13,137 bases of DNA from Anaerolineales bacterium UBA6663 (GTDB lineage: Bacteria; Chloroflexota; Anaerolineae; Anaerolineales; UBA6663), in NCBI GenBank assembly GCA_002455335.1, contig DKKP01000333.1, positions 1-13,137 of the forward strand, written 5' to 3'. The translations under genes were made by a program, and so were the position numbers. The notes beneath the pieces are model-generated. The model saw only the letters and a program-made list of their open reading frames with translations, searched no databases and was not told where the DNA came from. This document shows, piece by piece, positions 444-13,137 of the stretch; the first letter of the stretch is position 1, and each line of letters starts with the position of its first letter.

Positions 444-2417
444 TCAGACATCCAGACCGAACGCCTTCATCTTTCGCCACAGCGTGCTACGGCCGATACC
501 GAGCAATTTGGCAGCCTGGCTGGCGTTGTGCCCGGTCGCGGTCAGGGCGTGGCGGATCGCGCGCCGTTCGACCTCATCCAGTGCGACCACGGGCTCGTCG
601 GCTGCAGCGATCCCGGGCGGAGGCGCGACTGGTCCGCGCGGCTGGCGCACGCTTTGAGGCAGATGCGTCTGATCGATCTCGGGCGCCTCGACCGTCAACG
701 CCAGGCGTTCGAGCAGGCTTTGGAGCTCGCGAACGTTACCGGGCCAGGGGTAGGCCAGCAACGTCGCCCGCGCCGCCGAGGTGATGATGAGTGGCCGGCC
801 AAGCTGGGTGCGCAGGCGCGTCAGCACCCGGTCGATCAGCGGGCCGATATCCTCGGGCCGATCGCGGAGCGGCGGGATGGTGATGATCACGGCGCTGAGC
901 CGGAAGAACAAGTCGCGGCGGAAGCCACCGTCGTCGACCATGGCCTCCAGGTCGTGGTGGCTCGAAGCGATGATGCGTGTGTCGACCGGCCAGACCCGTT
1001 TGCCGCCCAGCCGGATGACGTCGCCGGCCTCGATGACGCGCAAGAGCGCGGCCTGCATATCAAGCGGCAGGGCGTCGACCTCCTCGAGGAAGAGCGTGCC
1101 TCCGTCGGCGAGTTCGAACTTGCTCGGTTGGTCTCCCACGCCGCTTGTTCCAAAAACACCGGCTTCGTAGCCCAGGAACTCCTGGAGGGCCAACTCACGC
1201 GGGACGGCGCGGCAGTTGATCGCCAGGAAGGGCCGGGCGGCCCGGCGACTGCTGTTGTGGATGGCTCGGGCCAGGATGTTCTTGCCTGTGCCGCTCTCGC
1301 CAAGGAGCAACACGCTGGCCTTGGCGTCGGCGATGGCCAGCGCCTGCCGCCGGACGCGTTGGGCCGCCGGCCCATCGCCGCCGAGGTCGTCGATCGTCAG
1401 GTGCGCCTGCGCGCCGACCATCTGGGTCACCAGCTGACGCACGGTCTCGGCCTGCCGCAGCGTGGCGATGTAGGTGGCCGGCTGTTGGGCCGGCCCGTGT
1501 ACGATCCGCAAGCTGAGCAGACACTCGCGCGACTCGCCGGCCACGTTCAGGTTGACCAGCACGTCGCTGAGCTCCTGGCCGCGTGACAGCGCCCGCGCCA
1601 CGCCCTCGGGCAGCGTGACGAAGTCGGCCAGGGCGCGCCCAAGCAACTCCGAGGGCATCACCCCGAGCATCTGTCCGGCCTGTCGGTTGAGATGCGTCAC
1701 CCGGCCCGTGGTCGCGTTCCAGGCCAACACGCCCTCGGAAATCGCGTCGATCGTGGCGTTGAGCTCGGTGGATTGCAGATGTGTTTCGAGCAGCAGCTGA
1801 TCGGCGGTCAGCTGGTTCTCGATCGACTTGGCGGTGGCCACAACCAGGCTGAGCATCTGGCCGGCGCTCGAGCCTGCCTTGCCGATCACGCCGATGGCGC
1901 CTTCGGCATGGCCATCGAGCCCGAAGATCGGGGCCGCGGCCGTGGCGATCTCGTGCCAGACCGTCAGGAAGTGTTCGCCGCCGACCACACAGGCCGGACA
2001 GGCCTGGAGTTGCGTGATCCCAAAGGCGTTGGTGCCGATGTGGCTTTCGTCGAGGAAGACGCCCGGGCGCAGACCGGCCGGCGCGAGCGCCTGGCTCTCT
2101 CCGACCACGAGGAGCACGCAGTTGGTGCTGTCGACCAGCAACAGCGCCGCCCCTGTGCCTTCGAGGGTCTGCTGGAGATCTTCGAGCAGGGGCTGAGCCT
2201 GGCGGATCAGGTCTTTGTGCTGGTTGAGGTTGAGCCGAAAGACCTCGGCATTGAGCGAGGTCCAGCGGGGCGGGGCGAACGGGTTGAGCCGTGGGCTGCA
2301 GCGCTGCCATGAGGCGATGACCAGCGGGTCGAGCAGCCGGGGCAGGCGCCCGGTGCGCACGAAGTGGTCGTGCGCGGCGTGCAGTTCATCAAGGCTCCAC
2401 GGCAGGTTGGGCTGCAT
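444..2417 (-). CDS. AcoR-like transcriptional regulator (GAF-PAS-AAA+-Fis HTH)
   Basis: About 657 residues from ATG 2417; a GTG at 2432 would add five residues. Neither start has a convincing ribosome binding site. Numbering from the ATG, the order is an AcoR-type N terminus with the SWQRC motif (about 36-40), a GAF domain (about 65-215), a PAS domain (about 217-325), an AAA+ domain (about 340-585) and a Fis-type helix-turn-helix at the C terminus (615-657, GHNASQAAKLLGIGRSTLWR). Walker A is GESGTGKN (373-380), Walker B GTLFLEEVD (440-448), and the arginine region RRDLFFRL is present. The usual GAFTGA loop reads GVFGTSG (420-426), so normal sigma54 contact is doubtful. The GAF domain holds a CPAC motif (140-143). 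Relatives sense small metabolites such as acetoin and activate dehydrogenase operons. Lying last after modA and modB, it may control the molybdoenzyme system in this window; that is inference. Confidence 0.9.
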   Translation of the reverse strand: MQPNLPWSLDELHAAHDHFVRTGRLPRLLDPLVIASWQRCSPRLNPFAPPRWTSLNAEVFRLNLNQHKDLIRQAQPLLEDLQQTLEGTGAALLLVDSTNCVLLVVGESQALAPAGLRPGVFLDESHIGTNAFGITQLQACPACVVGGEHFLTVWHEIATAAAPIFGLDGHAEGAIGVIGKAGSSAGQMLSLVVATAKSIENQLTADQLLLETHLQSTELNATIDAISEGVLAWNATTGRVTHLNRQAGQMLGVMPSELLGRALADFVTLPEGVARALSRGQELSDVLVNLNVAGESRECLLSLRIVHGPAQQPATYIATLRQAETVRQLVTQMVGAQAHLTIDDLGGDGPAAQRVRRQALAIADAKASVLLLGESGTGKNILARAIHNSSRRAARPFLAINCRAVPRELALQEFLGYEAGVFGTSGVGDQPSKFELADGGTLFLEEVDALPLDMQAALLRVIEAGDVIRLGGKRVWPVDTRIIASSHHDLEAMVDDGGFRRDLFFRLSAVIITIPPLRDRPEDIGPLIDRVLTRLRTQLGRPLIITSAARATLLAYPWPGNVRELQSLLERLALTVEAPEIDQTHLPQSVRQPRGPVAPPPGIAAADEPVVALDEVERRAIRHALTATGHNASQAAKLLGIGRSTLWRKMKAFGLDV

Positions 2418-2484
2418 GGCGCCATTATGCACCAGGTAATGGTGGCTGCGGGCTCAGGCGGATCGGTTACCGCCAGGACGAGAT

Positions 2485-2529: not shown

Positions 2530-3420
2530 CTAATCCCCTGGGCCGTTCTCGACGGGCTGGCGTTGCAGCAAACCCTTGGCCACGATCAACACGAGGCAGG
2601 AACTGGCGATCAGGATCACCGAGAGCGTCAGGGCCACGTCGAGATCGAGCTCGAAGCCGATGTAGATCGCGAGCGGCATCGTCTGGGTACGACCCGGGTA
2701 GTTGCCCGCGAAGATAATCGTGGCGCCAAATTCGCCGAGCGCGCGCGCCCAGGTCAGCACGGCGCCGCTGAGCAGTGCCGGCCAGGCCAGAGGCACCGTG
2801 ATCAGTCGAAACACAGCCCAGCTCCCGGCGCCGTCGAGCGTGGCCGACTGCTCGAACTCACGCTCGACGGCAGTGAAGCCGACGAGCGCGGACTTGATGT
2901 AGAGCGGCGCGGCGATGAAGGTCTGGGCGATGACGACTGCGGTCTGAGTGAAGGCGATGCTCAGCCCCCAGTCCTCGAGCAAGCTGCCGACGATCCCGCG
3001 TCGGCCGAAGGCCAACAGCAGGGCGACGCCCGCCACAGCCGGCGGAAGGACGGTCGGCAGATCGATCAACGTGTCGAGCACGCGCTTCAGCCGGAACGTG
3101 CGTCGGGCCATGAGATAGGCGAGCGGCGTGCCGAAGACGATGGTGATCAGGACCGACATGCTGGCCGTGGTCAGGCTGAGGCTGATCGCGCGATAGACCT
3201 CTTCGCGTACGAGCGTTGCGGCCAGTTGATCGACCGATACCCGCGACAGTAGCGCTCCGAGCGGCAGGATCAGGAAAAGCAGAAAAGGCGCGTTGACCAG
3301 CCATAACCCGTCGAACCGGCGCGGCCGCGAAGAGGGGCGGTAACCGCCAAGACGCAACGCGTTCCAAGCATCAGCTGGCGCCCTTGGCGTTTTTGTGGTT
3401 TCACCCTCTCGCGTGACCAT
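2530..3420 (-). CDS. modB: Molybdate/tungstate ABC transporter permease (ModB type)
   Basis: A 296-residue inner-membrane permease that would carry molybdate or tungstate delivered by the binding protein encoded just upstream. Six membrane segments are visible, at about 38-60, 79-105, 115-140, 157-180, 206-235 and 260-288. The cytoplasmic EAA-type loop that docks the ATPase is at about 186-212 (SATLDGAGSWAVFRLITVP). LPPAVAGVALLLAFG and ARALGEFGATIIFAG are typical of ModB/CysT-type permeases. It starts 11 bases after modA stops, so the two are probably co-transcribed. The ATG at 3418-3420 has no good ribosome binding site. The first 30 or so residues are poorly conserved in character and partly encoded by a palindromic repeat (3342-3401), so the ancestral start may have been different. 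No ATPase gene follows. Specificity between molybdate, tungstate and sulfate cannot be read from the permease alone. Confidence 0.9.
   Translation of the reverse strand: MVTREGETTKTPRAPADAWNALRLGGYRPSSRPRRFDGLWLVNAPFLLFLILPLGALLSRVSVDQLAATLVREEVYRAISLSLTTASMSVLITIVFGTPLAYLMARRTFRLKRVLDTLIDLPTVLPPAVAGVALLLAFGRRGIVGSLLEDWGLSIAFTQTAVVIAQTFIAAPLYIKSALVGFTAVEREFEQSATLDGAGSWAVFRLITVPLAWPALLSGAVLTWARALGEFGATIIFAGNYPGRTQTMPLAIYIGFELDLDVALTLSVILIASSCLVLIVAKGLLQRQPVENGPGD
3341..3401. repeat. Interspersed palindromic repeat inside modB 5' end
   Basis: The segment begins AACCGCCAAGACG and ends CTTGGCGTTTTTGTGGTTT. The arms CGCCAAG (3345-3351) and CTTGGCG (3383-3389) are exact inverted repeats, and the outer bases (AACC / GGTTT) are nearly complementary. 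This type of AACCGCCAAG...CTTGGCG element is, from memory, a common intergenic repeat in Chloroflexota, Acidobacteria and Planctomycetes. Here it overlaps the codons for about residues 7-27 of the predicted permease. Confidence 0.55.
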
Positions 3421-3431
3421 GTGGGTGTTGC

Positions 3432-4316
3432 TTAGCGCCAGCCGCTCTCGCTGAGCGAGGCCGCCGGGTGGCTCACCTGCGAGCCACCGCCGGCCGGGAG
3501 GAAGCCGTAGTTCTCGAGGATCGCCTGGCCCTCGGCACTCAGCACGTAATCGATAAACGCCCGGGCCAGTTCGGCCCTGGCACTATCGACCACCGGCGCG
3601 ATCGGGTAAGTCGCGATGGTGTTGAGCGCATCCGGGATCTCCAGGCTGACGACGTCTTTGGCCGGGTCGCCGACGATGTCGCTCGTATAGACGATGCCTG
3701 CGTCTCCCTCGCCCAGCGCAACCTTGGTCAGCACCGAACGGACGTTATCCTCGTACGAAACGACGTTGGCCAGGACGGCGTCTTTGAACACGGCCCCAAA
3801 GCTGGCATCGGCTGCAGCCTTGTCGAGGAAGTCCAGCGAATACTGCCCGACCGGCACGTCCCTGGCGGCCAAGATGAGCTTGAGGCCGGGATTCGCCAGA
3901 TCTCGTAGGGTTGCGACGTCGGCCGTGCTGTCTGCTGGCGTGATCACGACCAGGCGGTTGCGGACGAAGACCTGAGCGCTCTCGGGCGCAACGCGGCCGG
4001 ATTCCACAGCTACCTCCATCTGCCTGGAGTTGGCGCTGGCGAACACATCGGCGGGAGCGCCCTCGCCGAGTTGCTGGGCGAGCGCATTCGAGCCGCCGAA
4101 ATTGTAAATCACTGTGACGCCTGGATGCGCCGCCTCGAAGTTCGTTTTGATTTCGGCATAGGCATCGGTCAGCGACGCGGCCGCGAAGACCGTCAGATCG
4201 ACAGGCTGGGCAGCCGCGGAGGGCGGCACCGCGGTGAGCGCGGGGGTGGCCGCCGGGGCGCAGGCCGCCAGGAGGAGCGCTGCCGCCGCCAGGATCGAAG
4301 CCAAATCGCGTTTCAT
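3432..4316 (-). CDS. modA: Molybdate/tungstate-binding lipoprotein ModA
   Basis: A 294-residue periplasmic-type substrate-binding lipoprotein of the ModA family that captures molybdate or tungstate for the permease. The ATG at 4314-4316 is preceded by AGGAGA six bases upstream, which fixes the start. The frame stays open further upstream, but only across the padR gene. The N terminus is a lipoprotein signal (MKRD, then a hydrophobic stretch ending LLLAAC), with the lipid-bearing cysteine at residue 19, followed by an Ala/Pro/Thr linker. The mature domain shows ModA landmarks: TVFAAASLTDAY, FGGSNALAQQL with EGAPADVFASA, NRLVVITP, DVPVGQYSLDFL and EGDAGIVYTSDIV. These segments carry the serine, valine, alanine and tyrosine oxyanion ligands in the family. 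It follows padR by 38 bases and precedes modB by 11, so it is the middle of one operon. Confidence 0.95.
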   Translation of the reverse strand: MKRDLASILAAAALLLAACAPAATPALTAVPPSAAAQPVDLTVFAAASLTDAYAEIKTNFEAAHPGVTVIYNFGGSNALAQQLGEGAPADVFASANSRQMEVAVESGRVAPESAQVFVRNRLVVITPADSTADVATLRDLANPGLKLILAARDVPVGQYSLDFLDKAAADASFGAVFKDAVLANVVSYEDNVRSVLTKVALGEGDAGIVYTSDIVGDPAKDVVSLEIPDALNTIATYPIAPVVDSARAELARAFIDYVLSAEGQAILENYGFLPAGGGSQVSHPAASLSESGWR

Positions 4317-4354
4317 ATTCTTCTCCTGCAGAGTAAGGGTGAGGCCGGGCGTCG

Positions 4355-4924
4355 TTACCGGCCGGGCAAGTGATCGATCGGCAGCCGGGCCGTCTCTTCC
4401 ATGAGATCGAGCCAGGTCAACATCGACTCGATCTGACCGATGCGGAACTGACAGACCTTCCACTCGAAGGGCCGCGCATCGCGCGCCGACTCGGCCTGGC
4501 GCTGCTGCTGGCTCAACCAATCCTGGCAGATCGTGCGCTGTGCCTGGATGAGCTTCTCGGCAACGGCCCGGCCTTCGCGCTCGGCGAAAAAATACCGGGT
4601 CAGGAAGTCGAGCCGGATATCGCGGCCGCGCGACACCGGCGCGCGTACCCACGCGCGAAAGGTCGAGCGGCCGACCCGGGTCAGGCGGTAACGTCGCCGG
4701 TTGGGCCGTGTCTCCTGGGGCTCGAGGGTCGAGGTGAGATACCCTTCCTCTGCCAACCGGGTGAGCAGGGCGTAGAGGTGGCTTTGCTTCAAGCGCCAGA
4801 CTTCGCCCAACCCGGCCGGGTCGGAGAGCCGCCGATGGATCTCATAGCCATGAAGCGGCCCCTCGCGCAAGAAGCCGAGGAGCGCCAGTTCTACAGTTAG
4901 CGGCAGGCGGATCATCGGGCTCAT
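4355..4924 (-). CDS. PadR-family transcriptional regulator
   Basis: 189 residues from ATG 4924, which is preceded by GGAG six bases upstream. An ATG at 4948 would add eight residues but lies within the promoter region and has no ribosome binding site. Residues about 8-85 form a PadR winged helix (ELALLGFLREGPLHGYEIHR, SHLYALLTRLAEEGYL, then RRRYRLTRVGRSTFRAWV). The C-terminal half (about 95-180) is the helical PadR dimerisation domain (RLDFLTRYFF, KLIQAQRTICQDWL). PadR proteins are usually repressors released by small ligands. It is the first gene of the padR-modA-modB block, and a perfect inverted repeat overlaps its own candidate promoter, so it probably represses itself and the transport genes. 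A PadR rather than a ModE regulator ahead of modAB is unusual. Its ligand is unknown. Confidence 0.9.
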   Translation of the reverse strand: MSPMIRLPLTVELALLGFLREGPLHGYEIHRRLSDPAGLGEVWRLKQSHLYALLTRLAEEGYLTSTLEPQETRPNRRRYRLTRVGRSTFRAWVRAPVSRGRDIRLDFLTRYFFAEREGRAVAEKLIQAQRTICQDWLSQQQRQAESARDARPFEWKVCQFRIGQIESMLTWLDLMEETARLPIDHLPGR

Positions 4925-6510: not shown

Positions 6511-7884
6511 CTACGCCAGCTTGATCGATCGCTTGGCAAGCGTGGGCGGCGCGACGGGCTCGGTCGTGAGATGAAGGTCGAGGCTGAGGCGGGGCGCGGC
6601 GGTGAGGGGCGGCAGAGCGCGCAGCGCGTTCAGTGCTTCGGCTCGAACGGTGTCCGGGTTCGCCGTCGGCGTGATCTGGATCGCCACCGACACGCGTGGG
6701 CCTGCTTCGGCGCGCGCGACTACTGTGGCGAAGTTGAGGATCCCGTCCACGGCAAAGAGCACTTCGTCGAGATCAGGCTGGGTCAGCCACAAACCGCCAC
6801 CCAGATCGACCGGGCCGCTCAGCCGGGTGGTGATGTGTGACAGCGTCCGCAGGCTGGTGCCACAGGGGCAGGGCGTCTCGATCCAGTGGCCATAGTCCCC
6901 GGTGCGATAGCGGATCAGGGGCATGCCTTCGCGCGTCAGTGTGGTGAAGACGACCTCGCCCGGTTCGCCGGGAGCAGCCGGCAGGCCGGTGGCCGGATCA
7001 ATCACCTCATAGAGCAGGTCGGCTTCACGCAGGTGATAGCCGCGTCGGGCCTCGCAGTCGACGCCCCCGCCCAGACCAGTCTCCGTCATGCCATAGTGGT
7101 TGTAGACCGTGCAGCCCCAGGCGCCCTCGATGGCGTGCACGATCGCCTGCGGCACATGATCGGTGCTGAGCAGCACGCTGTGCACGGGTGGCACGGGCTC
7201 GCCCGGCGCCATCGTGCGCACCAAGCGCACAAGATGCGTGGGCACGCCGACCATCACTGTCGCGGCCTCGCGAACTGCGACGGCACGGGTGGCCACCGGG
7301 TCGCGCACCGGGCCGTGTTTGATCGGCACAGCGCCGATCCGCTCCAGGCCCTTCGCCAGTAGATCTCCCACACTGCCCGGCGTCTCTCCAGGCAGCAATA
7401 TCAGCACACGATCGCCCGGACCCGTGAACGTCGACATACCGACGCCGAAGAAATCGATCGTGAGTTCTTGATCGGTCTTCGTGAAGTACAGGCGCTTTGG
7501 TGTGCCCGTCGTGCCCGAGCTGTCGAGCGTCACCACGCGCGCGATCTCGTCCTGCGACACGCACACGAACGCCAGAGGATCTGCGCGCACATCCTCGGCC
7601 GTGGTGAACGGCAACCTTTCAAGATCGTCGAGCGACGTGATCTCGGGTACCCCCGCCAGTGGTTCGCGGTAGAAACGACTTTTTGTGCGCGCGAGCTCGA
7701 CTGTGGCTTTGAGACGCGCGATCTGGTAGGACTCAAGGGCGGAGCGACGAAGGTCGGATGGCCGTTCAACCATCGTCCTTTGTTCTTCGTCGTTCGTCAG
7801 CGGCGAAGACTCATCGTCCACGGTCCGAGGTCCGCGGTCCGCAGTCTTCTGGGCAATCCACGGCTCAAGCGGAGTCAGGCTCAT
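6511..7884 (-). CDS. PaaK-like AMP-dependent CoA ligase (DVU_1553-like)
   Basis: 457 residues of the phenylacetate-CoA ligase/coenzyme F390 synthetase branch of adenylate-forming enzymes, which activate a carboxylate with ATP. The start ATG 7884 overlaps the radical SAM stop by four bases (ATGA), so translation is coupled; the open frame upstream of it is only a shadow. Visible motifs are the ATP loop SSGTTGTPK (121-129), HYGMTE (262-267), YRTGD (325-329), a cysteine pair in PCPCG (337-341) as in many PaaK relatives, and KRSIKLA at the C terminus with a possible catalytic lysine. Residues about 13-43 are encoded by a low-complexity repeat placed between PLEPWIAQK and RRSALESYQIARLKATVELA, which would normally be nearly adjacent. 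From memory, homologues in this gene order are RefSeq's DVU_1553 family beside molybdenum aldehyde oxidoreductases. The substrate is unknown; aromatic acid activation is only the family default. Confidence 0.88.
   Translation of the reverse strand: MSLTPLEPWIAQKTADRGPRTVDDESSPLTNDEEQRTMVERPSDLRRSALESYQIARLKATVELARTKSRFYREPLAGVPEITSLDDLERLPFTTAEDVRADPLAFVCVSQDEIARVVTLDSSGTTGTPKRLYFTKTDQELTIDFFGVGMSTFTGPGDRVLILLPGETPGSVGDLLAKGLERIGAVPIKHGPVRDPVATRAVAVREAATVMVGVPTHLVRLVRTMAPGEPVPPVHSVLLSTDHVPQAIVHAIEGAWGCTVYNHYGMTETGLGGGVDCEARRGYHLREADLLYEVIDPATGLPAAPGEPGEVVFTTLTREGMPLIRYRTGDYGHWIETPCPCGTSLRTLSHITTRLSGPVDLGGGLWLTQPDLDEVLFAVDGILNFATVVARAEAGPRVSVAIQITPTANPDTVRAEALNALRALPPLTAAPRLSLDLHLTTEPVAPPTLAKRSIKLA
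7765..7850. repeat. Low-complexity repeat inserted in the CoA ligase N-terminal coding region
   Basis: On the plus strand the segment has CTTTGTTCTTCGTCGTTCGTC, then GAAGACT (7805-7811), three GGTCC units spaced seven bases apart, and AGTCTTC (7843-7849). The two outer heptamers are exact inverted repeats around a 31-base loop. The composition is unlike the surrounding codons. Translated, it gives a polar, acidic, proline- and threonine-bearing stretch (TADRGPRTVDDESSPLTNDE) with no resemblance to the ligase fold. The insertion keeps the reading frame. Confidence 0.6.
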
Positions 7885-9302
7885 GCGACGGCCACCGGTT
7901 GCTGGCGATAGAGCGACCGGCCATGTCGATCGGTGAGGTTGTAGGCGCAGAAGGGGTAGCAGGCGCCGTCGTCCTCGGCGATGTGGATGTGGCAGTCGCG
8001 CAGGCGATCGAGGTCGAGCGTCCAGGCGTCCTGGAAGGCCATGCCCGAGATGCAGAATTGATGCGTGCGCATGCGATCGAGGAACACGTCCCACTCGCCA
8101 AAGCTTGGGCCGTTCGACGTTGCTGTCGCCTCGTGCGGCGCGGACCAGGCTTTGGCGACGAAGTCGCGCGCCCGGGCCATGGCCAGGCCGGCGGGCTCGA
8201 GGTCGAGCTCAAGTGGAGCGCTGACCGGCGCGCCCGTGGGCGTGCAGCAGGCCGAGGCGTTTTTGGGCTGCGAGAGTTGACGCAGCGTGCCGTCGGGCAT
8301 CGAGACGAAGTTGCCGTTGAACGAGCACAGCGCGTTCTCGGCGCCGGCCGGCTGGAAGTGCGCGATCCTGACCAGGCCGTTCGTCTGGGCCTCGAGCCCG
8401 GCGATGATCTCGGGCAGCGTGATGCGATCGGCGTCGGTCGGAGCCTGCGGATAGCGGCCGAAGTAGCTGACGGGCTGGAAGTGCACGCCGCGCACAATCG
8501 GCTGGTGAGCCAGGCCGAAGCGAACGATCTCGCCGAGGTGGTCGGCGTTGACGCCCGGCACCACCACGGGCACGAGCACGACACCCAGGCCGGCTTCGCC
8601 GCAGTTGGCGATGGCGCGCTCTTTGTGGATCTGCAGGGCACGACCGCGCATCCGCTCGTGGATGTCGTCGCGCGTGCCGTCGAACTGCAGGAACACGGTC
8701 GAGACGCCCGAGGCCTTGAGCCGCCGCGCGAAGTCGATGTCGCAACCGAGGCGCAAACCGTTGGAGTTGACCTGGATGAACGTGAAGCCGATGTCGCGGG
8801 CCAGCGCCGCGATCTCGGGCAGATCGTCGCGGACGCAGGGCTCGCCGCCCGAGAGCTGCAGGTTGGCGCCACCTGTGCGATCCATCAGCGCGCGCAGCCG
8901 GGCCTCGATGGTGGTCCTGTCGAGCTCGAAGGCGACGCTGGCCGCGCCGCCCGCGCTTGCGAAACAGAACGAGCAACTCAGGTCGCAGCGCCGCGTGACT
9001 TCGAGGAGGACGCAGCACGACGAGATGCGATGGTCCGGGCACAGCCCGCAGTCGTACGGGCAGCCGCGCGAGACCTCGGTGGCGGGCCGCGTCGGCGGCG
9101 ACGGCCGCTTCGCGCGCACCCAGCTCGAGAAGGCCGGCTTGCCGCGCCAGATGATCGTCTGAGTGATGCCGTGGGTCGGGCAGGCCTTCTTGAGGTAGAC
9201 ATTCTCGCCGCGCGCGACGCGCACCGCCGGGACGCGTGCCAGACACTCGGGGCAGACGCTCTCGGTCTCGCTCAGGATGGTGTCGAGCTCAAGCATCATC
9301 AT
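7881..9302 (-). CDS. trsS: Multi-cysteine radical SAM protein (TrsS-like)
   Basis: 473 residues of a radical SAM enzyme in the branch that includes the archaeal tetraether-lipid synthase. Cysteine groups occur in order: CPEC (17-20) with CPTHG (41-45), probably a zinc site; CPYDCGLC (81-88), a likely auxiliary iron-sulfur or metal site; adjacent C96 and C97; the radical SAM motif CDLSCSFC (106-113), which binds the SAM-ligating 4Fe-4S cluster; and CYPFC (448-452) near the C terminus. GGEP (152-155) is the SAM-contacting motif. Three consecutive ATG codons (9302, 9299, 9296) could start it. The first overlaps the upstream gene by 14 bases with only a weak ribosome binding site. It ends in an ATGA overlap with the CoA ligase. 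From memory, RefSeq names this neighbour of the C-GCAxxG-C-C protein 'radical SAM (seleno)protein TrsS'. No selenocysteine is apparent here. The reaction is unknown; context suggests maturation of a molybdenum hydroxylase. Confidence 0.88.
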   Translation of the reverse strand: MMMLELDTILSETESVCPECLARVPAVRVARGENVYLKKACPTHGITQTIIWRGKPAFSSWVRAKRPSPPTRPATEVSRGCPYDCGLCPDHRISSCCVLLEVTRRCDLSCSFCFASAGGAASVAFELDRTTIEARLRALMDRTGGANLQLSGGEPCVRDDLPEIAALARDIGFTFIQVNSNGLRLGCDIDFARRLKASGVSTVFLQFDGTRDDIHERMRGRALQIHKERAIANCGEAGLGVVLVPVVVPGVNADHLGEIVRFGLAHQPIVRGVHFQPVSYFGRYPQAPTDADRITLPEIIAGLEAQTNGLVRIAHFQPAGAENALCSFNGNFVSMPDGTLRQLSQPKNASACCTPTGAPVSAPLELDLEPAGLAMARARDFVAKAWSAPHEATATSNGPSFGEWDVFLDRMRTHQFCISGMAFQDAWTLDLDRLRDCHIHIAEDDGACYPFCAYNLTDRHGRSLYRQQPVAVA

Positions 9303-9741
9303 CGTCGCGTCCCGCCAGGTCGTAGCCGTTCTCGACCAGGAGTTCTTTGACCTTCTGGAGCGTGCCGGCCACCATCAACGGGCAGCGCGTGGTGGTGCCG
9401 TTCGAGACGCCGGTGAGGATGTCGTCGCAGCGGATGCCGCCGAAGTCCTTGCCGTAGCCTTCCTTGAACCACTTCACGAGGTCTTCGACCATGAAATTCA
9501 ACCGCGGATCGTCCTCGTCGCTTTCCTTGCCCTTGCCCGCGTACATCCCGAGCACGACAGCACCGCCGGTCAGGGCGCCGCAGGTCTCGCCGGTGAAGCC
9601 GAGGCCGCCGGCCAGCGCGTGAGTGGCGCGCACGAGCGGTGCATTCTCCCGGCCCTGCAGGTCGAGCGCCATGAGCATCAGGATCTGGCTGCAGAAGAAC
9701 CCCTGACGCTTCAATTCGATCATGCGATCCTGATCAGACAT
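9289..9741 (-). CDS. C-GCAxxG-C-C family redox protein (DVU_1555-like)
   Basis: 150 residues. Four cysteines match the family pattern: C17 (FFCSQ), C54 in GETCGALTGG, C105 (GGIRCDD) and C120 (TTRCP). The glycine-rich GGLGFTGETCGALTGGAVVLG segment (about 45-65) is the defining core. The family is thought to bind a metal or iron-sulfur centre or act as a redox carrier, but no member has a firmly established role that I know of. It starts three bases after the methyltransferase stops, with GAGGTGA as a near-perfect ribosome binding site overlapping that stop, and ends inside the start of the radical SAM gene, so all three are translationally linked. The C terminus (GRDDDDA) is acidic. There is no signal peptide, so it is cytoplasmic. 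Confidence 0.92.
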   Translation of the reverse strand: MSDQDRMIELKRQGFFCSQILMLMALDLQGRENAPLVRATHALAGGLGFTGETCGALTGGAVVLGMYAGKGKESDEDDPRLNFMVEDLVKWFKEGYGKDFGGIRCDDILTGVSNGTTTRCPLMVAGTLQKVKELLVENGYDLAGRDDDDA

Positions 9742-9744
9742 GAG

Positions 9745-10497
9745 TCACCTCTTCCGCGCCACGAGCAGGAAGTAGCTGGGCCGCGCGGCCTTGAGCGCGG
9801 CCTGAGCGTCGGGCTGATCGGCGCCGACGCCCAGCAGCGGCGCCAGTGAACCCTGCCTCCAGATCATCTGAGCCGCGTACGCATTCAGCGCGGCCACGTG
9901 ATCCTCCCAGGCCATCGTCTCGAAGCCTGCGTCCTTGAGCGCATCGCGTACATCGCGCTCGATGGGCAGTCCGCCCCAACACGACGTCGCGCACTCCAAG
10001 GGCAAGGCCATCGCATGGCGGGCATAGACGTCGGTCAGCGCCAGCCAGCCGCCGGGCCGCAGCGCTCGATGCCACTCAGCCAGCGCGCGGCCCCCCGCGC
10101 AGACCGACCACACGCACTCGGCGAACACGGCATCAAGGCTGGCGCTGGCGCAGGGCAGGGCCATGGCCGACGCCTGAGCGAAGCACGCCTCGCCCGCTCG
10201 CGTTCGCGCTTCCACCAACCGGGCCAATGACAGATCAACGCCGCCGGCTCGAAAGCCGCGTTGCGACAGATGCGCCACCGTCTCGCCGTACCCGCAGCCG
10301 ACGTCCCACACGCGCGCGCCTTCGGGCAACGCGCAGTGAGCCAGCGCGCGGTCAGTCAGTTCGAGGCCGCCGGGACGAAGAGCGAGGGGCGAGCAGCGAG
10401 GAGCGAAGAGCGAGGGGCGAGGGGCGAGGGGCGAACGCTGCCGCGCGGTAGCGTTCGCTCCTCGCTCCTCGCTTCTCGCTCCTCGCTCCTCGATCAC
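9745..10497 (-). CDS. Class I SAM-dependent methyltransferase with repeat-derived N terminus
   Basis: 250 residues. Residues from about 41 form a class I methyltransferase: LRPGGLELTDRAL, motif I VWDVGCGYGETV (63-74), GGVDLSLARL (motif II region), FAQASAMALPCASASLDAVF and the motif IV/V region WHRALRPGGWLALTDVYARH. The start is GTG 10497, which shares bases with the TGA of the preceding gene (GTGA) and has a strong GGAGG four bases upstream. Residues 3-40 (MIEERGARSEERG and onward, rich in Arg, Ser, Pro and Ala) come from a long inverted repeat and are not part of the fold. The DVU_1556/TrsM-like families occupy this place in related clusters, from memory. The substrate is unknown. The large hairpin just after the start codon may lower translation. 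Confidence 0.85.
   Translation of the reverse strand: MIEERGARSEERGANATARQRSPLAPRPSLFAPRCSPLALRPGGLELTDRALAHCALPEGARVWDVGCGYGETVAHLSQRGFRAGGVDLSLARLVEARTRAGEACFAQASAMALPCASASLDAVFAECVWSVCAGGRALAEWHRALRPGGWLALTDVYARHAMALPLECATSCWGGLPIERDVRDALKDAGFETMAWEDHVAALNAYAAQMIWRQGSLAPLLGVGADQPDAQAALKAARPSYFLLVARKR
10376..10492. repeat. Long near-perfect inverted repeat (hairpin) at the methyltransferase start
   Basis: Arms 10397-10439 and 10450-10492 (43 bases each) pair around a ten-base loop, GCCGCGCGGT. The inner CGAACGCT/AGCGTTCG is exact. On the plus strand, 38 positions are Watson-Crick, four are G-T (10430, 10423, 10416, 10415) and one is an A/C mismatch (10407/10482). In the transcribed minus strand the G-T positions become C/A mismatches and the A/C one becomes a G-U wobble. 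The arms consist of 7-9-base units of the GAGGAGCGA/GAGGGGCGA type, and similar units continue left to about 10376. The hairpin spans exactly 96 bases, so it leaves the frame intact, and it begins three bases after the GTG start codon. Confidence 0.9.
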
Positions 10498-10694
10498 TTA
10501 TCCTCCAACTGCTTCTCGACGTCGATCATCTTGCCGAGCGCCAGATCTTCAGGGATGAAGACCTGGCCGCAGGTCGGGCACTTGAGCAACTCGACCGGGA
10601 AGGCATTGCCGAGATAGGCGACGTTGACCTGGGCCGGTTCGAGCTCGCGGTTGCACAGCGCGCACATCACGATCGGCTTGTCTGGCGTGCTCAT
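10494..10694 (-). CDS. Small double-CxxC redox or zinc protein (DVU_1557-like)
   Basis: 66 residues with two CxxC pairs, C11/C14 (MCALC) and C39/C42 (KCPTC), in a rubredoxin- or zinc-ribbon-like arrangement, then FIPEDLALGKMIDVEKQLED. Four cysteines this close in so small a protein would bind one zinc or iron. The start ATG 10694 overlaps the stop of the large flavoprotein gene (ATGA), with AGGGG eight bases upstream. The stop overlaps the methyltransferase GTG. It is thus firmly embedded in the operon. From memory, RefSeq calls the equivalent protein the 'DVU_1557 family redox protein'. A role as an electron carrier or metal-handling partner of the flavoprotein upstream is inference. Confidence 0.88.
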   Translation of the reverse strand: MSTPDKPIVMCALCNRELEPAQVNVAYLGNAFPVELLKCPTCGQVFIPEDLALGKMIDVEKQLEDK

Positions 10695-13066
10695 GGGTTT
10701 TGCCCCTGCTTCGGCGGATCCTCGACGATCTCCATCCGGTGGCTGTAGGCGTTGAAGATCTCGTACGCCTCGCCGACCGGCGCGTACTCGACCCAGTAGG
10801 TCACGGCCACGGGTTTGTGAGTGGCCAGGAAGTGGCCGGTGTCGGGATGCACGAGGCGTCGTCCGGTGCGCTCGGCATGCGCGATCACGCGGCGCATGTC
10901 TTCGTCGAGGATCAGGCGCTTCTCGAGGCGCGCGCGCACCGTGTCGGAGACGATCAGCTGGATGGTGTCGATGGGATCGGGTCCGTCCATGTCTTCTCCC
11001 CAGACGTTCTTCAGAATCTGACGCTTGAGCCGGGCGCGGTTCTCGTGCCGCTCCGACCAGCCCAGCGCCGGCCGCTGGGCTTTGGCTTCAAACTCGCCGC
11101 CTTCGGTGCCGAAGATCAGGTCGAGCAGATGTACCGTCGGTTTGCCGCCGCGCGCCAGGAAGTCGCGGCACATGGCGCAGTAGGCGACGTAGTCCGCCGG
11201 CCCTTCCTCGACACGCTTCGCCACGACCTTGTCGGCGACTTCGGGGTTGGCCAGCCACTGCACGCCGCCGTAGCCGCAGCACGTCGTGCGCGCCCGGCTG
11301 CGCGGCAGTTCGTCGACCGTGTAGCCGAGCCAGTCGAGCACCGTGCGAACGCTGTTCTGCAGCCCGGCTTCATGCCGTGTGGCGCAGGCGTCGTGCACGC
11401 TGATTGCTCGGCCGCCGCCGGGTTTCGCGCCCTCGGGCAGGCCGCGCTCGACCATCAGGTCCCACAACGACAGCACCTGCGCTTCCGGCAGATGCGCCTT
11501 GAACGAGCGCATGCAGCTCGAACAGGCCAGCACCACCTTTGGATTGCCCATGCTCTGCAGTTGTTCGCGCAGGCCGCTCAGGTTCTCGGCGAACAGATCC
11601 TTGCGGCCGGCCCAATCGGCCGGGGCACCGCAGCAGCCGAGCAGCAGCCCGAGCTTCGTGCCTTCTGGCAACGCGCCGCCGAGGTAAGCGTACACCTGCT
11701 CGACCTGTTCAGGCGAGGCCGAGCTGAGCTGGCAGCCCGGGAAGAAGACCACGTCGCTGGCCGTCGTGCCGGGCGCGTTGCGGGCAACCGAGAACGCGTC
11801 GCTGCGGCTGAAGGCCATGTCGCGCAGCGCGAAGTCGTGGGCCGACGGCGGCATGCGCTTCTGTTCGACCATCAGTTCGCGGGCACGCTGGTTGACGGTG
11901 CCCGTGTCCAGGTCCGTCGGGCAGACCTCGGCACACAGCCCGCACAGGCTGCACGAGTTGATCAGCTGGTTGCTGTAGCGCGTGCCCTTGACGATGGCGA
12001 GGTTGTTGTAGACCTCGCGCACGAGCTTGCGCGGGTAGCGTTTGTAGTGCGCGAGATACTCGCAGACCTTGACGCATTCCATGCACTCGCACTGCAGACA
12101 GCGCTGGGCTTCGCGCTGGGCGTTGGCCTTGGTGTAGCCGCGCACCTCATCGAGTTGGATGATCGTCGCTGAGGCCCTGTCGTCGGTGCGCGTGTACAGA
12201 CAGGACTCGATCGAGCCCTCGCCGACGCGCGCGGCCGTGAGCGACACGCCCTGCAGATAGCGGTCGATCGAGATCGCGGCGCGCCGACCGTCGGCGATCG
12301 AGTCGATGGCGCGGGCCGCGTGCCCGCGCAGCAAACTGCCGCCCGCGAACACGCCGTCGCGGCTCGTTGCGAAAGTCATGGGATCGACCGCGATCCGGCC
12401 GCCCGCGTCGCGGGTCAGCCCGAACGTCGCGCCGGATTCGGCGCCGACCGCGAGATAGACGGCCTCGTTGTGATCGCGCAACTCGTCGAGCGTCAGCGCC
12501 GCGCCGACCGGCGAGTTGAGATGGATCTCGATGCCGAGCGCCTCGATCGCGCCGACCTCGGTCGTGATCAGGCTGTGAGGCAGGCGCTCTTCGGGATAGC
12601 TCCACAGCCGGCCGCCGAGTGGATCAATGGCCTCGTAGATGGCGACGATATAGCCTTTGCGGGCGAGGTCATGCGCGGCGGTCAGGCCGCTCAAGCCGCC
12701 GCCGACAATCGCCACATGTTTGTTGCGCTTCGGCACCGGCCGGGCCTTCTCGGCCTTGAGCGCCCCGAAATCCACGCAGGCGCGCTCGAGGGCCGCGATC
12801 TCGATGGCGGCGTCCTTGCCGCCATCAGTGGTCGACACATCTCCGCGCTTGCAGACAGGTCGGCAGGGTTGTTCGCAGATGCGGCCGATGATGCCGGGGA
12901 AGGGCAGGGTCTTGCGCAGCGTTTTCAGGGCGGCGTCGGCGTCGCCTTTGCCGAACTCGAGCAGCACGCCGCGCACGTCGACGTGGATCGGGCAGGTCGC
13001 CGTGCACGGTGGCGCGCAATCCTGAATGCACTGCTCCTCGAGGGCGCGCAGTTCGTTTTGTTCCAT
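10691..13066 (-). CDS. FAD/iron-sulfur oxidoreductase with two CCG domains (DVU_1558-like)
   Basis: 791 residues. In order: a GltD/dihydropyrimidine dehydrogenase-type N-terminal iron-sulfur domain (C13, C17, C21, C25; C64, C68, C72); an FAD Rossmann motif GGGLSG (122-127) with GGRLWSYPEERLP; GVFAGGSLLRG (238-248) where GVFAAGD is usual; a ferredoxin-like domain (C323-C335, and CSLCGLCAEVC at 372-382); then two heterodisulfide-reductase-type CCG domains (C445, C478-C479, C515, C518; C561, C596-C597, C630, C633); and a C-terminal domain of about 120 residues I cannot assign. I see no second Rossmann motif for NAD(P)H. The start ATG has GAGGGAG just upstream. RefSeq names the family, from memory, 'pyridine nucleotide-disulfide oxidoreductase/dicluster-binding protein'. 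It probably moves electrons to or from a molybdenum aldehyde oxidoreductase or its maturation system. First gene of the visible operon. Confidence 0.9.
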   Translation of the reverse strand: MEQNELRALEEQCIQDCAPPCTATCPIHVDVRGVLLEFGKGDADAALKTLRKTLPFPGIIGRICEQPCRPVCKRGDVSTTDGGKDAAIEIAALERACVDFGALKAEKARPVPKRNKHVAIVGGGLSGLTAAHDLARKGYIVAIYEAIDPLGGRLWSYPEERLPHSLITTEVGAIEALGIEIHLNSPVGAALTLDELRDHNEAVYLAVGAESGATFGLTRDAGGRIAVDPMTFATSRDGVFAGGSLLRGHAARAIDSIADGRRAAISIDRYLQGVSLTAARVGEGSIESCLYTRTDDRASATIIQLDEVRGYTKANAQREAQRCLQCECMECVKVCEYLAHYKRYPRKLVREVYNNLAIVKGTRYSNQLINSCSLCGLCAEVCPTDLDTGTVNQRARELMVEQKRMPPSAHDFALRDMAFSRSDAFSVARNAPGTTASDVVFFPGCQLSSASPEQVEQVYAYLGGALPEGTKLGLLLGCCGAPADWAGRKDLFAENLSGLREQLQSMGNPKVVLACSSCMRSFKAHLPEAQVLSLWDLMVERGLPEGAKPGGGRAISVHDACATRHEAGLQNSVRTVLDWLGYTVDELPRSRARTTCCGYGGVQWLANPEVADKVVAKRVEEGPADYVAYCAMCRDFLARGGKPTVHLLDLIFGTEGGEFEAKAQRPALGWSERHENRARLKRQILKNVWGEDMDGPDPIDTIQLIVSDTVRARLEKRLILDEDMRRVIAHAERTGRRLVHPDTGHFLATHKPVAVTYWVEYAPVGEAYEIFNAYSHRMEIVEDPPKQGQNP

Positions 13067-13108: not shown

Positions 13109-13137
13109 CTGCCGCCGGGGCAAAACCCCGGCGGCAG
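13109..13137. terminator. Strong 12-bp GC hairpin at the right edge
   Basis: CTGCCGCCGGGG (13109-13120) and CCCCGGCGGCAG (13126-13137) are exact inverted repeats around CAAAA. In the minus direction no T-run follows, so it would not be a classic intrinsic terminator for an upstream gene read into this operon. In the plus direction any T-run would fall outside the window. It lies 42 bases before the flavoprotein start and could be an intercistronic mRNA structure, an attenuator or a terminator. Confidence 0.5.

Follow-up and report, generated by a model that had tools for sequence, protein, structure and literature searches.

A conserved six-gene radical SAM cluster in a Chloroflexota genome and its possible role as a self-standing electron-consuming module

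What is served by a set of six genes that usually lies beside an aldehyde-oxidising molybdenum enzyme, and does it work for that enzyme or stand on its own? To our knowledge, the corresponding Desulfovibrio region, DVU_1553–DVU_1559, is known only as named families with no function described. The question is raised by a stretch of 13,137 nucleotides (hereafter the window), which is the entire contig of a Chloroflexota MAG. In it the initial annotation had recognized, on the minus strand, the set and order of DVU_1558 to DVU_1553, and had taken the cluster to be probably for a molybdenum aldehyde oxidoreductase (AOR). A profile search upheld the former: all six genes (6511–13066) scored above the curated NCBIfam cut-offs (given below as bits/cut-off), and their order on one strand, checked against the maps of 80 loci, is that of the DVU families.

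10691..13066, minus strand: DIC, dicluster flavoprotein (NF045663, 1005.2/530; Pfam Fer4_20 plus FAD domain)
10494..10694, minus strand: DVU1557, DVU_1557 family small protein, DUF7479 (NF045645, 97.8/60; two CxxC motifs, tail LEDK)
9745..10497, minus strand: DVU_1556 family SAM-dependent methyltransferase (MT), related to ArsM/UbiE (NF045667, 208.5/155)
9289..9741, minus strand: DVU_1555 family C-GCAxxG-C-C protein (CGA; NF045669, 163.1/103; PF09719)
7881..9302, minus strand: TrsS, radical SAM enzyme with conserved ligands (NF045646, 624.7/490)
6511..7884, minus strand: DVU_1553 family AMP-forming, PaaK-like ligase (LIG; NF045666, 449.1/300)

The genes are tightly packed, with 4-nt overlaps at three junctions, a 14-nt overlap between the C-GCAxxG-C-C and TrsS genes and a 3-nt gap between the methyltransferase and C-GCAxxG-C-C genes. 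The ligase, whose best PDB relative is PaaK (4r1l, E 4.5e-32), most likely starts at ATG 7884, which overlaps the TrsS stop as ATGA and replaces the GTG at 8094 of the ORF list; a palindromic repeat at 10397–10492 encodes the N-terminal part of the methyltransferase. Where TrsS loci in other species offered at least 4.5 kb of upstream and at least 1.5 kb of downstream sequence, 38 of 59 contained all six families, and the grouping is therefore more than chance. In C. ragsdalei the set is split: one locus has TrsS by itself, another has AOR-DIC-1557-LIG, and the methyltransferase and C-GCAxxG-C-C protein are at neither, so that these two may be dispensable. As the initial annotation had foreseen, the set extends beyond Deltaproteobacteria, with relatives in Bacillota, Acidobacteriota, Rhodoplanes and Pleomorphomonas besides the Chloroflexota window. 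The six genes are thus a real, widely conserved bacterial gene set, usually located beside an aldehyde-oxidising molybdenum enzyme. Its biochemistry had been thought undescribed, and a literature search likewise turned up neither biochemical nor mass-spectrometric work on the steps of the system.

The right flank could not be read, as only 71 bp of contig follow the first gene, DIC, and they end in a perfect hairpin, likely the reason why the assembly stopped before the expected AOR gene. The molybdenum hydroxylase that had been expected nearby or elsewhere in the genome was found on contig C207 as an AOR (NF045668, 1602/1100), the sole match over cut-off in the genome. Its 3′ end points towards the end of C207, and no shared sequence was found between the ends of the two contigs; from the gene order elsewhere, they would be adjoining. 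The window genome resembles the DVU_1553–DVU_1559 region in the six families above cut-off, their order and an AOR in the genome, but differs in having the AOR on a separate contig; MocA/HD (NF045665) and XdhC_rel_AOR (NF045664) proteins over cut-off were not found in it. The remaining features of the window are as follows.

13109..13137, no strand: hairpin at the contig end (12-nt perfect inverted repeat)
3432..4652, minus strand: ModA, molybdate-binding protein (TIGR01256, 171.7/62.5; the homologous part begins after about residue 113)
2530..3420, minus strand: ModB, molybdate ABC permease (TIGR02141, 211.9/182.6)
444..2432, minus strand: DhaR/PrdR-like sigma-54 activator (NF008485, 502.5, below the cut-off of 551)

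ModA, downstream of the six genes, possibly reflects a linked metal supply; ModA/ModB are also close to some AOR operons elsewhere, and so are relatives of the activator (cluster C37, at 12 loci including the window).

The presumed association with AOR was confirmed by counting: TrsS is also present in 178 of 189 AOR-bearing Desulfovibrionaceae (AOR–TrsS odds ratio 162), and given this tight co-occurrence an AOR-centred role is possible within that family. Moreover, among 28 searched genomes without a visible AOR at the TrsS locus, 17 have one over cut-off elsewhere. Together with the Moco genes in the operons (NF045664, NF045665, MoeA-like, ModA/B), these counts favor the alternative that the six genes assist in making, inserting or protecting the AOR cofactor, molybdopterin cytosine dinucleotide, jointly with MoeA-, MocA/HD-, XdhC- and CobC-like genes, which we nevertheless consider unlikely. 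TrsS and the ligase are kept in eight Chloroflexota genomes in which no NF045668 AOR over cut-off was found, a count for which a completeness figure is available for G121 only (86%); no AOR-family match at all was found in G316, G321, G868, G990, G732 and G991, and only other family members in G963 and G121. The AOR of D. gigas (1SIJ, 1VLB), which matches the G549 protein at 100% over 309 aa, likewise speaks against maturation: its own gene lies inside a six-gene-type cluster (MoeA-AOR-DIC-1557-MT-CGA-TrsS-LIG-XdhC-PGM), but the native, crystal-characterised enzyme is described with an ordinary cofactor in the consulted parts of PMC10223205 and PMC3877041. As far as these parts go, a non-standard cofactor in the AOR of a cluster-bearing organism was not borne out. 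Because AOR-less genomes keep TrsS and the ligase and, on these partial sources, the D. gigas cofactor is ordinary, the module appears not to be simply an AOR accessory, and the initial view that the cluster is "for" the AOR is not supported in that form. The absence of NF045664 and NF045665 over cut-off from the AOR-less G316 and G321 is not decisive on maturation, because the AOR-bearing G000, G328 and G301 also lack them.

The AOR-less branch is a natural experiment in which the module can be viewed apart from AOR. TrsS, methyltransferase and ligase exceed the NCBI cut-offs at L092 and L107, and DIC does so at L092; no AOR was found by tblastn at L092, L107 or L129, each extending at least 8.6 kb to either side. 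In a tree of 79 TrsS proteins, the three AOR-less members included form the sister group of all others (FastTree supports 0.985/0.938). DVU1557 is present at five of the eight AOR-less loci (the L092 copy has no NCBIfam match at E 1e-10), the methyltransferase was not found at G732, and the C-GCAxxG-C-C protein was seen only at G121, with a relative at G732. The electron part is variable: a dicluster-CCG unit is found at G316, G321, G868, G990 and G991 and was not seen at G121 or G732, and the G963 locus ends at a contig end. L107 carries a NuoF-like gene, and G990 carries NuoF-, HdrA- and sulfhydrogenase-type genes (relatives of some at G868 and G991), both with a separate dicluster-CCG gene, and tungsten-AOR, HdrA- and HdrBC-like genes divergently adjoin L045. 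It appears that the module can draw its electrons from several sources, AOR being one of them.

DIC combines a 4Fe-4S dicluster with two HdrB-type CCG motifs and a C-terminal domain, DICc, which some other loci encode as a gene of its own. It shares with the HdrCB/CCG proteins a dicluster that precedes two complete CCG motifs (C-Xn-CC-Xn-CxxC; both in the window and in 54 of 56 DIC proteins), but here this part is joined to a GltD-type FAD domain and to DICc. By these motifs DIC is HdrB-type, with a predicted disulfide reductase activity. By motif search and spacing, a second Rossmann motif, as expected for NAD(P)H binding, is lacking in 55 of the 56 proteins, including that of the window, which in this respect does not fit its NCBI name, pyridine nucleotide-disulfide oxidoreductase. 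The one DIC having it is that of the AOR-less L092, and this pattern also argues against the module being just an accessory of AOR. With a looser motif, four scattered matches appeared in other DIC proteins, which we read as chance, and the genome of L063 (G310) has no AOR over cut-off, yet its DIC also lacks the second motif. The motif was not found in D. gigas DIC either. The operon of an AOR studied for almost 40 years, for which the consulted part of PMC10223205 gives flavodoxin as the proposed partner, itself encodes a flavoprotein, apparently without a nucleotide site, that ends in heterodisulfide-reductase-type centres and is a more specific partner candidate.

The AlphaFold model of TrsS (pLDDT 88.9) matched Tes, the GDGT-MAS tetraether lipid synthase MJ0619 (7TOL, 7TOM; PMC9433317), with a TM of 0.77 to 7TOL. 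All four metal-site motifs of Tes (one rubredoxin-like site, three 4Fe-4S clusters) were found in TrsS: the rubredoxin-like C-X2-C-X20-C-X2-H motif, an N-terminal 4Fe-4S motif with His, the radical SAM motif, and three conserved Cys plus Met in the C-terminal part. M421, by residue offset, may be the counterpart of the labile Met439 of Tes. The window's TrsS differs in an Ile where Tes Tyr459 aligns (our own numbering) and in a flexible linker that carries a Cys-Cys patch around 351–353, and it scored 330.8 against the Tes model NF045702, below the cut-off of 450, so that it was not taken as a Tes lipid synthase proper. A selenoprotein was also discarded, with no in-frame TGA and no stop inside the match.

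The small protein DVU1557 carries an E-x-K near its C-terminal end in 292 of 295 homologues, with 1–5 residues following the lysine in 25 of the 292. The tail is present in 64 of 64 alignment rows, the LEDK end in 174 of 175, and the last-residue entropy is 0, compared with 3.3–3.8 bits in nine partner families, while the synonymous codons of the tail vary. At least one CxxC is missing in 56 of the 295 homologues; 12 homologues in the whole set have fewer than 55 aa and may be truncated. Since the E-x-K tail is kept better than the CxxC motifs, the module again appears to be more than an AOR accessory. A docking function of the tail is conceivable, as a conserved C-terminus can serve binding and the NCBI name of DVU1557 is redox protein; that the tail is a docking or assembly motif only, the module being a plain redox accessory for AOR, is nonetheless improbable in view of the less conserved CxxC motifs and of DVU1557 at AOR-less loci. 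In LysW-type amino-group carriers and lipoyl/biotinyl carriers, a small protein or domain bearing a conserved acceptor residue is served by a ligase that uses ATP and, in the case of lipoate, also by a radical SAM enzyme. DVU1557 is similar in its conserved putative acceptor and accompanying ligase, but the acceptor would be a C-terminal Lys and no sequence relationship emerged (LysW, E 0.54, not significant). Judged from its sequence, DVU1557 is possibly a carrier protein, with the tail lysine as the candidate cofactor site.

We tentatively favor, as the best of several uncertain readings, that the six genes form a self-standing electron-consuming module, fed by AOR in AOR-bearing genomes, rather than an AOR-cofactor assembly line, with DVU1557 as a possible carrier. 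Electrons from an aldehyde would flow from the [2Fe-2S] of AOR, through contact with DIC, to its FAD and on via the 4Fe-4S dicluster and the HdrB-type CCG centres to DICc/DVU1557/TrsS. The substrate, a carboxylic acid, would be activated by the ligase, and TrsS would alter an unactivated carbon, forming a C-C or C-S bond at its C-terminal auxiliary cluster. The intermediate would most likely be held or presented on the tail lysine by acylation, and the methyltransferase would complete the product. The early hunch of small-molecule or cofactor work agrees with this. In a bolder version, which we regard as quite unlikely, a cofactor of a new kind would be bound to the lysine of DVU1557, a sulfur-containing swinging arm that is analogous to lipoate without being related to it. 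Here the acid would be loaded onto the C-terminal lysine by the ligase, TrsS would insert sulfur or form a C-C bond with the help of its C-terminal cluster, the methyltransferase would finish the cofactor, and the HdrB-type DIC would cycle the cofactor's disulfide; aldehydes (through AOR) or NAD(P)H/Hdr-type complexes would supply the electrons.

It is also doubtful that the operon is catabolic, with AOR oxidizing an aldehyde to an acid, the ligase forming the acyl-CoA, electrons passing to DIC, and either the acyl-CoA or a by-product serving as substrate for TrsS and the methyltransferase. The PaaK-like ligase fits this, as do CoA-type neighbours at some AOR-less loci (a MaoC-like gene at L107; double-cubane/HgdBC-type genes at G321, which have relatives at G732; an MFS gene of the monocarboxylate type that follows the ligase at G990, with a relative at G868). 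However, two SAM-consuming enzymes would be expensive for a bulk pathway, the neighbours vary among loci while TrsS and the ligase are constant, and the DVU1557 tail is left unexplained. A peptide modification, RiPP-like or a maturation event at E-x-K, in which DVU1557 is the substrate of TrsS (with or without the methyltransferase) and electrons come from DICc and the CCG centres, agrees with the strongly conserved tail and with the small protein adjoining the radical SAM gene at most loci, but is very doubtful, given that the TrsS fold is that of a lipid enzyme (the best peptide maturase match, SkfB, reached a TM of 0.38), that DVU1557 is conserved along its length and not as leader plus core, and that the ligase has no role.

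If the favored reading holds, many anaerobes would use the oxidation of aldehydes to power a biosynthetic or redox pathway arranged around DVU1557, a small protein of 7 kDa with a conserved lysine tail.

Profile searches of the window, which is contig C296 of a source genome of 4.79 Mb in 451 contigs (86% complete), matched its six minus-strand genes in order to the NCBIfam models for DVU_1558 to DVU_1553, each above the curated cut-off, and so bore out the gene set and order claimed in the initial annotation. These genes encode a dicluster/CCG flavoprotein (DIC), a small two-CxxC protein (DVU1557), a methyltransferase (MT), a C-GCAxxG-C-C protein (CGA), a Tes-like radical SAM enzyme (TrsS) and a PaaK-like ligase (LIG). 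The remaining genes are a TrmO-domain gene, ModA, ModB and a DhaR/PrdR-like sigma-54 activator; searches of the window for tRNAs, and for Rfam families at gathering score, found none. Its features are as follows.

3432-4652: modA open reading frame as called, with an N-terminal extension of ~110 residues that matches no family; the true start is probably near residue 113
6511-13066, minus strand: the six-gene set
10376-10495: palindrome of 48 nt, 88% complementary, with 14-nt repeats, coding for about residues 2-38 of the MT
13109-13137: perfect hairpin at the contig end

Relatives of the MT have a different N-terminal segment ahead of the LRPGG motif, where the window MT has the palindrome-encoded residues, and this gene may have been altered recently in its own genome. 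Against the PDB, no significant match was found for CGA, or for the DIC C-terminal domain (DICc, a separate gene at some loci) by fold (best E 0.038) or by profile. Searches of the open-licence PMC literature for DUF7479, NF045645 and DVU1557 came back empty, and no listed title took the six-gene set as its subject; TrsS was met as a single table row (PMC13188914), the word DVU1558 occurs in PMC3114432, and DVU_1559 is listed as Aor (PMC10920352).

The window contig breaks off at the edge of the hairpin, 71 bp upstream of the first gene. The molybdenum hydroxylase called for by the proposed link to a molybdenum aldehyde oxidoreductase (AOR) is present in the source genome, whose only AOR above the NF045668 cut-off lies on another contig, C207, with its 3′ end toward the contig end. 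No end overlap was found between C207 and C296; a second perfect hairpin lies downstream of the AOR (C207, locus L128, 45-105), and the two hairpins perhaps explain the assembly break. The TrsS loci of other species were the best 80 among the relatives of one query, which number at least 578. An AOR gene, whole or fragmentary, was found at 52 of the 80, and at 44 of the 54 that extend 8 kb or more upstream; for the remaining ten, eight genomes carry an AOR above cut-off elsewhere. Recurring operon companions were MocA/HD (NF045665), XdhC-like (NF045664), CobC-like phosphatase, MoeA-like, cysteine desulfurase and ModA/B genes.

The expected co-occurrence was likewise seen across 288 Desulfovibrionaceae genomes, in which AOR and TrsS occur together in 178, AOR only in 11, TrsS only in 9 and neither in 90 (Fisher 6.7e-51, which overstates the evidence because related genomes are not independent); the queries were an AOR segment and TrsS, the thresholds were chosen after the values were known, and the genome lists were copied by hand. 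TrsS exceeded its curated cut-off in 183 of the 288. Four of the 11 AOR-only genomes were inspected: in G357, G358 and G438 contig ends fall in or beside the cluster, and in G429 the operon is eroded, its AOR containing a stop and TrsS being absent. At two loci of this family, L142 (G363) and L146 (G503), the TrsS gene is longer or splits into two matches, as though it held an insertion.

The initial annotation had assigned the set to a molybdenum AOR; the association stands with these counts, and a purpose restricted to the AOR is not supported, given eight genomes in which this AOR was not found and the ordinary cofactor described for the Desulfovibrio gigas enzyme. D. gigas AOR, represented by 11 PDB entries of a single sequence, has its gene at G549, where the order is MoeA-AOR-DIC-1557-MT-CGA-TrsS-LIG-XdhC-PGM. 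According to the available parts of PMC10223205 and PMC3877041, the enzyme purified from D. gigas contains a pyranopterin cytosine dinucleotide with an equatorial oxo in place of the sulfido ligand, and those parts mention no other modification of the cofactor.

Among 28 searched genomes without an AOR at the TrsS locus, 17 carry one above cut-off elsewhere, four (G303, G308, G314, G327) gave a weaker or partial match, and seven (G121, G310, G312, G315, G316, G321, G325) gave neither a full nor a weaker match. Only G316, G321 and G121 of these seven were counted as AOR-less, on the grounds that the module in them is sufficiently complete and well inside its contig; G325 was not counted, though it had no AOR-family match, because the contig with its TrsS starts within the cluster, and G310, G312 and G315, with no AOR above cut-off, were likewise excluded. 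Across 393 genomes from the same class as G316, eight had TrsS above cut-off, namely G316, G321 and six new ones. No AOR-family match was found in G868, G990, G732 or G991, G963 has only AOR-family members other than this AOR, and G825 has the AOR in two pieces on its TrsS contig, each alone below cut-off. These searches therefore give eight genomes without this AOR, six of them without any family match.

At the loci of these eight, TrsS and LIG are present in all, MT in seven (none seen at G732), stand-alone DICc in seven (G963 is cut by the contig end), DVU1557 in five (with no copy found at G321 or G732) and a dicluster-CCG unit in five (G316, G321, G868, G990, G991). Tungsten-type AORs, a common type, are present in G316, G321 and G121, the three of the eight that were examined for them. 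TrsS, MT and LIG of G121 and of the AOR-less loci L092 and L107 exceed their curated cut-offs, as does DIC of L092, with the MT of L107 barely above (156/155). The TrsS of L092, L107 and G121 branch together as sister to all remaining TrsS (supports 0.985 and 0.938), in a tree with an all-TrsS stem of 0.786, a root of 12 Tes-like proteins that are not one clade, and the later-found genomes left out; nearest to the window TrsS is L039, from a Chloroflexi MAG, one of the grounds for taking the source genome, which shares its phylum with G121, as probably Chloroflexota. In the module of G868 and G990, two TrsS genes stand in tandem; after them come the ligase and an MFS transporter gene, of monocarboxylate type as judged by the G990 copy.

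In 79 TrsS sequences (4 of 81 had been removed beforehand by a length filter), C17-X2-C20-X20-C41-X2-H44, C81-X3-C85-X2-C88-X2-H91, C106-X3-C110-X2-C113 and C326 are invariant, and C437 (77/79), C452 and M421 (78/79 each) nearly so. The spacing and ligands of the first two motifs agree with Tes as described in the available part of PMC9433317, and the AlphaFold model (pLDDT 88.9) resembles Tes (7TOL) with a TM of 0.77, the next different protein being SkfB (0.38). TrsS is set apart from Tes by a variable linker, modelled at low confidence, that carries a Cys-Cys patch near 351-353. Its Pfam name Zn_ribbon_HMPTM, which we take to denote a pterin link, prompted the idea that TrsS modifies the pterin of the molybdenum cofactor. 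This was set aside because PMC9433317 assigns the Tes protein MJ0619 to lipid synthesis and rejects its annotation as a pterin methylase, and because the cofactor described for D. gigas AOR is ordinary. Tes-like proteins in many Chloroflexota (L011-L038 and others) score ~310-390 bits with TrsS, short of the cut-off, and are possibly bacterial membrane-spanning-lipid enzymes.

Over 64 aligned rows of DVU1557 (locus L092 twice), Y27, C39, C42, E64 and the terminal K66 do not vary; the last residue is K at 58/58 loci, with an entropy of 0 compared with 3.3 to 3.8 bits in nine other cluster families. One homologue search listed 120 of 771 matches and another, for the AOR-less type, 120 of 138. 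Among the matches listed, 174/175 homologues pooled from the former and a further search end in LEDK, 94/120 of the AOR-less type are K-terminal, and E-x-K lies near the end in 292/295, exactly terminal in 267; both CxxC motifs are kept in 239/295, and 12 are shorter than 55 aa. A Shine-Dalgarno artefact was rejected, since the codons (GAA 22/GAG 36, GAT 28/GAC 27, AAA 33/AAG 25) vary, all three stop codons and four different next genes occur, and a Shine-Dalgarno-like string is found at 35/58 tails; because codon choice varies, the constraint acts on the protein. The better conservation of the tail than of the metal-site motifs suggests that the tail matters most. Lipoate and LysW systems offer analogues of a ligase-loaded carrier, and by this analogy the PaaK-like ligase would attach an acyl group to DVU1557; a match of DVU1557 to LysW was not significant. 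That DVU1557 is a carrier we regard as conceivable if rather doubtful, and a lipoate-like sulfur cofactor as improbable.

An arsenic role gained no backing from the recurrent families with annotated representatives, among which no arsenic family was prominent. The MT is related to ArsM, and L053 has an ArsM-like gene upstream of DIC; upstream of the AOR on C207 (locus L128, 6343-8923) are a SaoE-related permease and MTH895/ArsE family thioredoxin-like and arsenite-methyltransferase-like proteins.

The DIC set comprised 56 proteins of more than 550 residues, 49 of which come from loci where an AOR was visible. Only in that of L092 was a second Rossmann motif found, and its FAD-to-CCG spacing is 484 compared with a median of 327 for the 25 other proteins in which the two motifs could both be located. 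No second motif was found in D. gigas DIC, and four scattered matches to a looser motif in other DIC were read as chance. L107 has a NuoF-like gene, and G990 NuoF-, HdrA- and sulfhydrogenase-type genes, followed in both by separate dicluster-CCG and DICc genes; BLAST found relatives of some of these at G868 and G991. At L045, a module with stand-alone DICc is divergent beside a tungsten-type AOR and HdrA- and HdrBC-like genes; elsewhere in that genome lies a Mo-AOR operon (MoeA-AOR-DIC-1557-XdhC-MocHD-PGM), with no TrsS, MT, CGA or LIG seen within the part covered. In two further genomes TrsS stands alone, apart from the locus that holds the AOR and DIC: in Clostridium ragsdalei (L057) it lies beside a CobW-like GTPase and ModA/ModB-type genes, and in Desulfosporosinus BRH_c37 (L050) beside ABC and, by eye, CbiM-like genes.

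From these arrangements we infer that the core module would consume electrons, with the AOR as one donor; it is possible that electrons run the opposite way. With the AOR as donor, the module would be separate from the AOR and fed by it, a reading that we hold as a real possibility somewhat short of probable.
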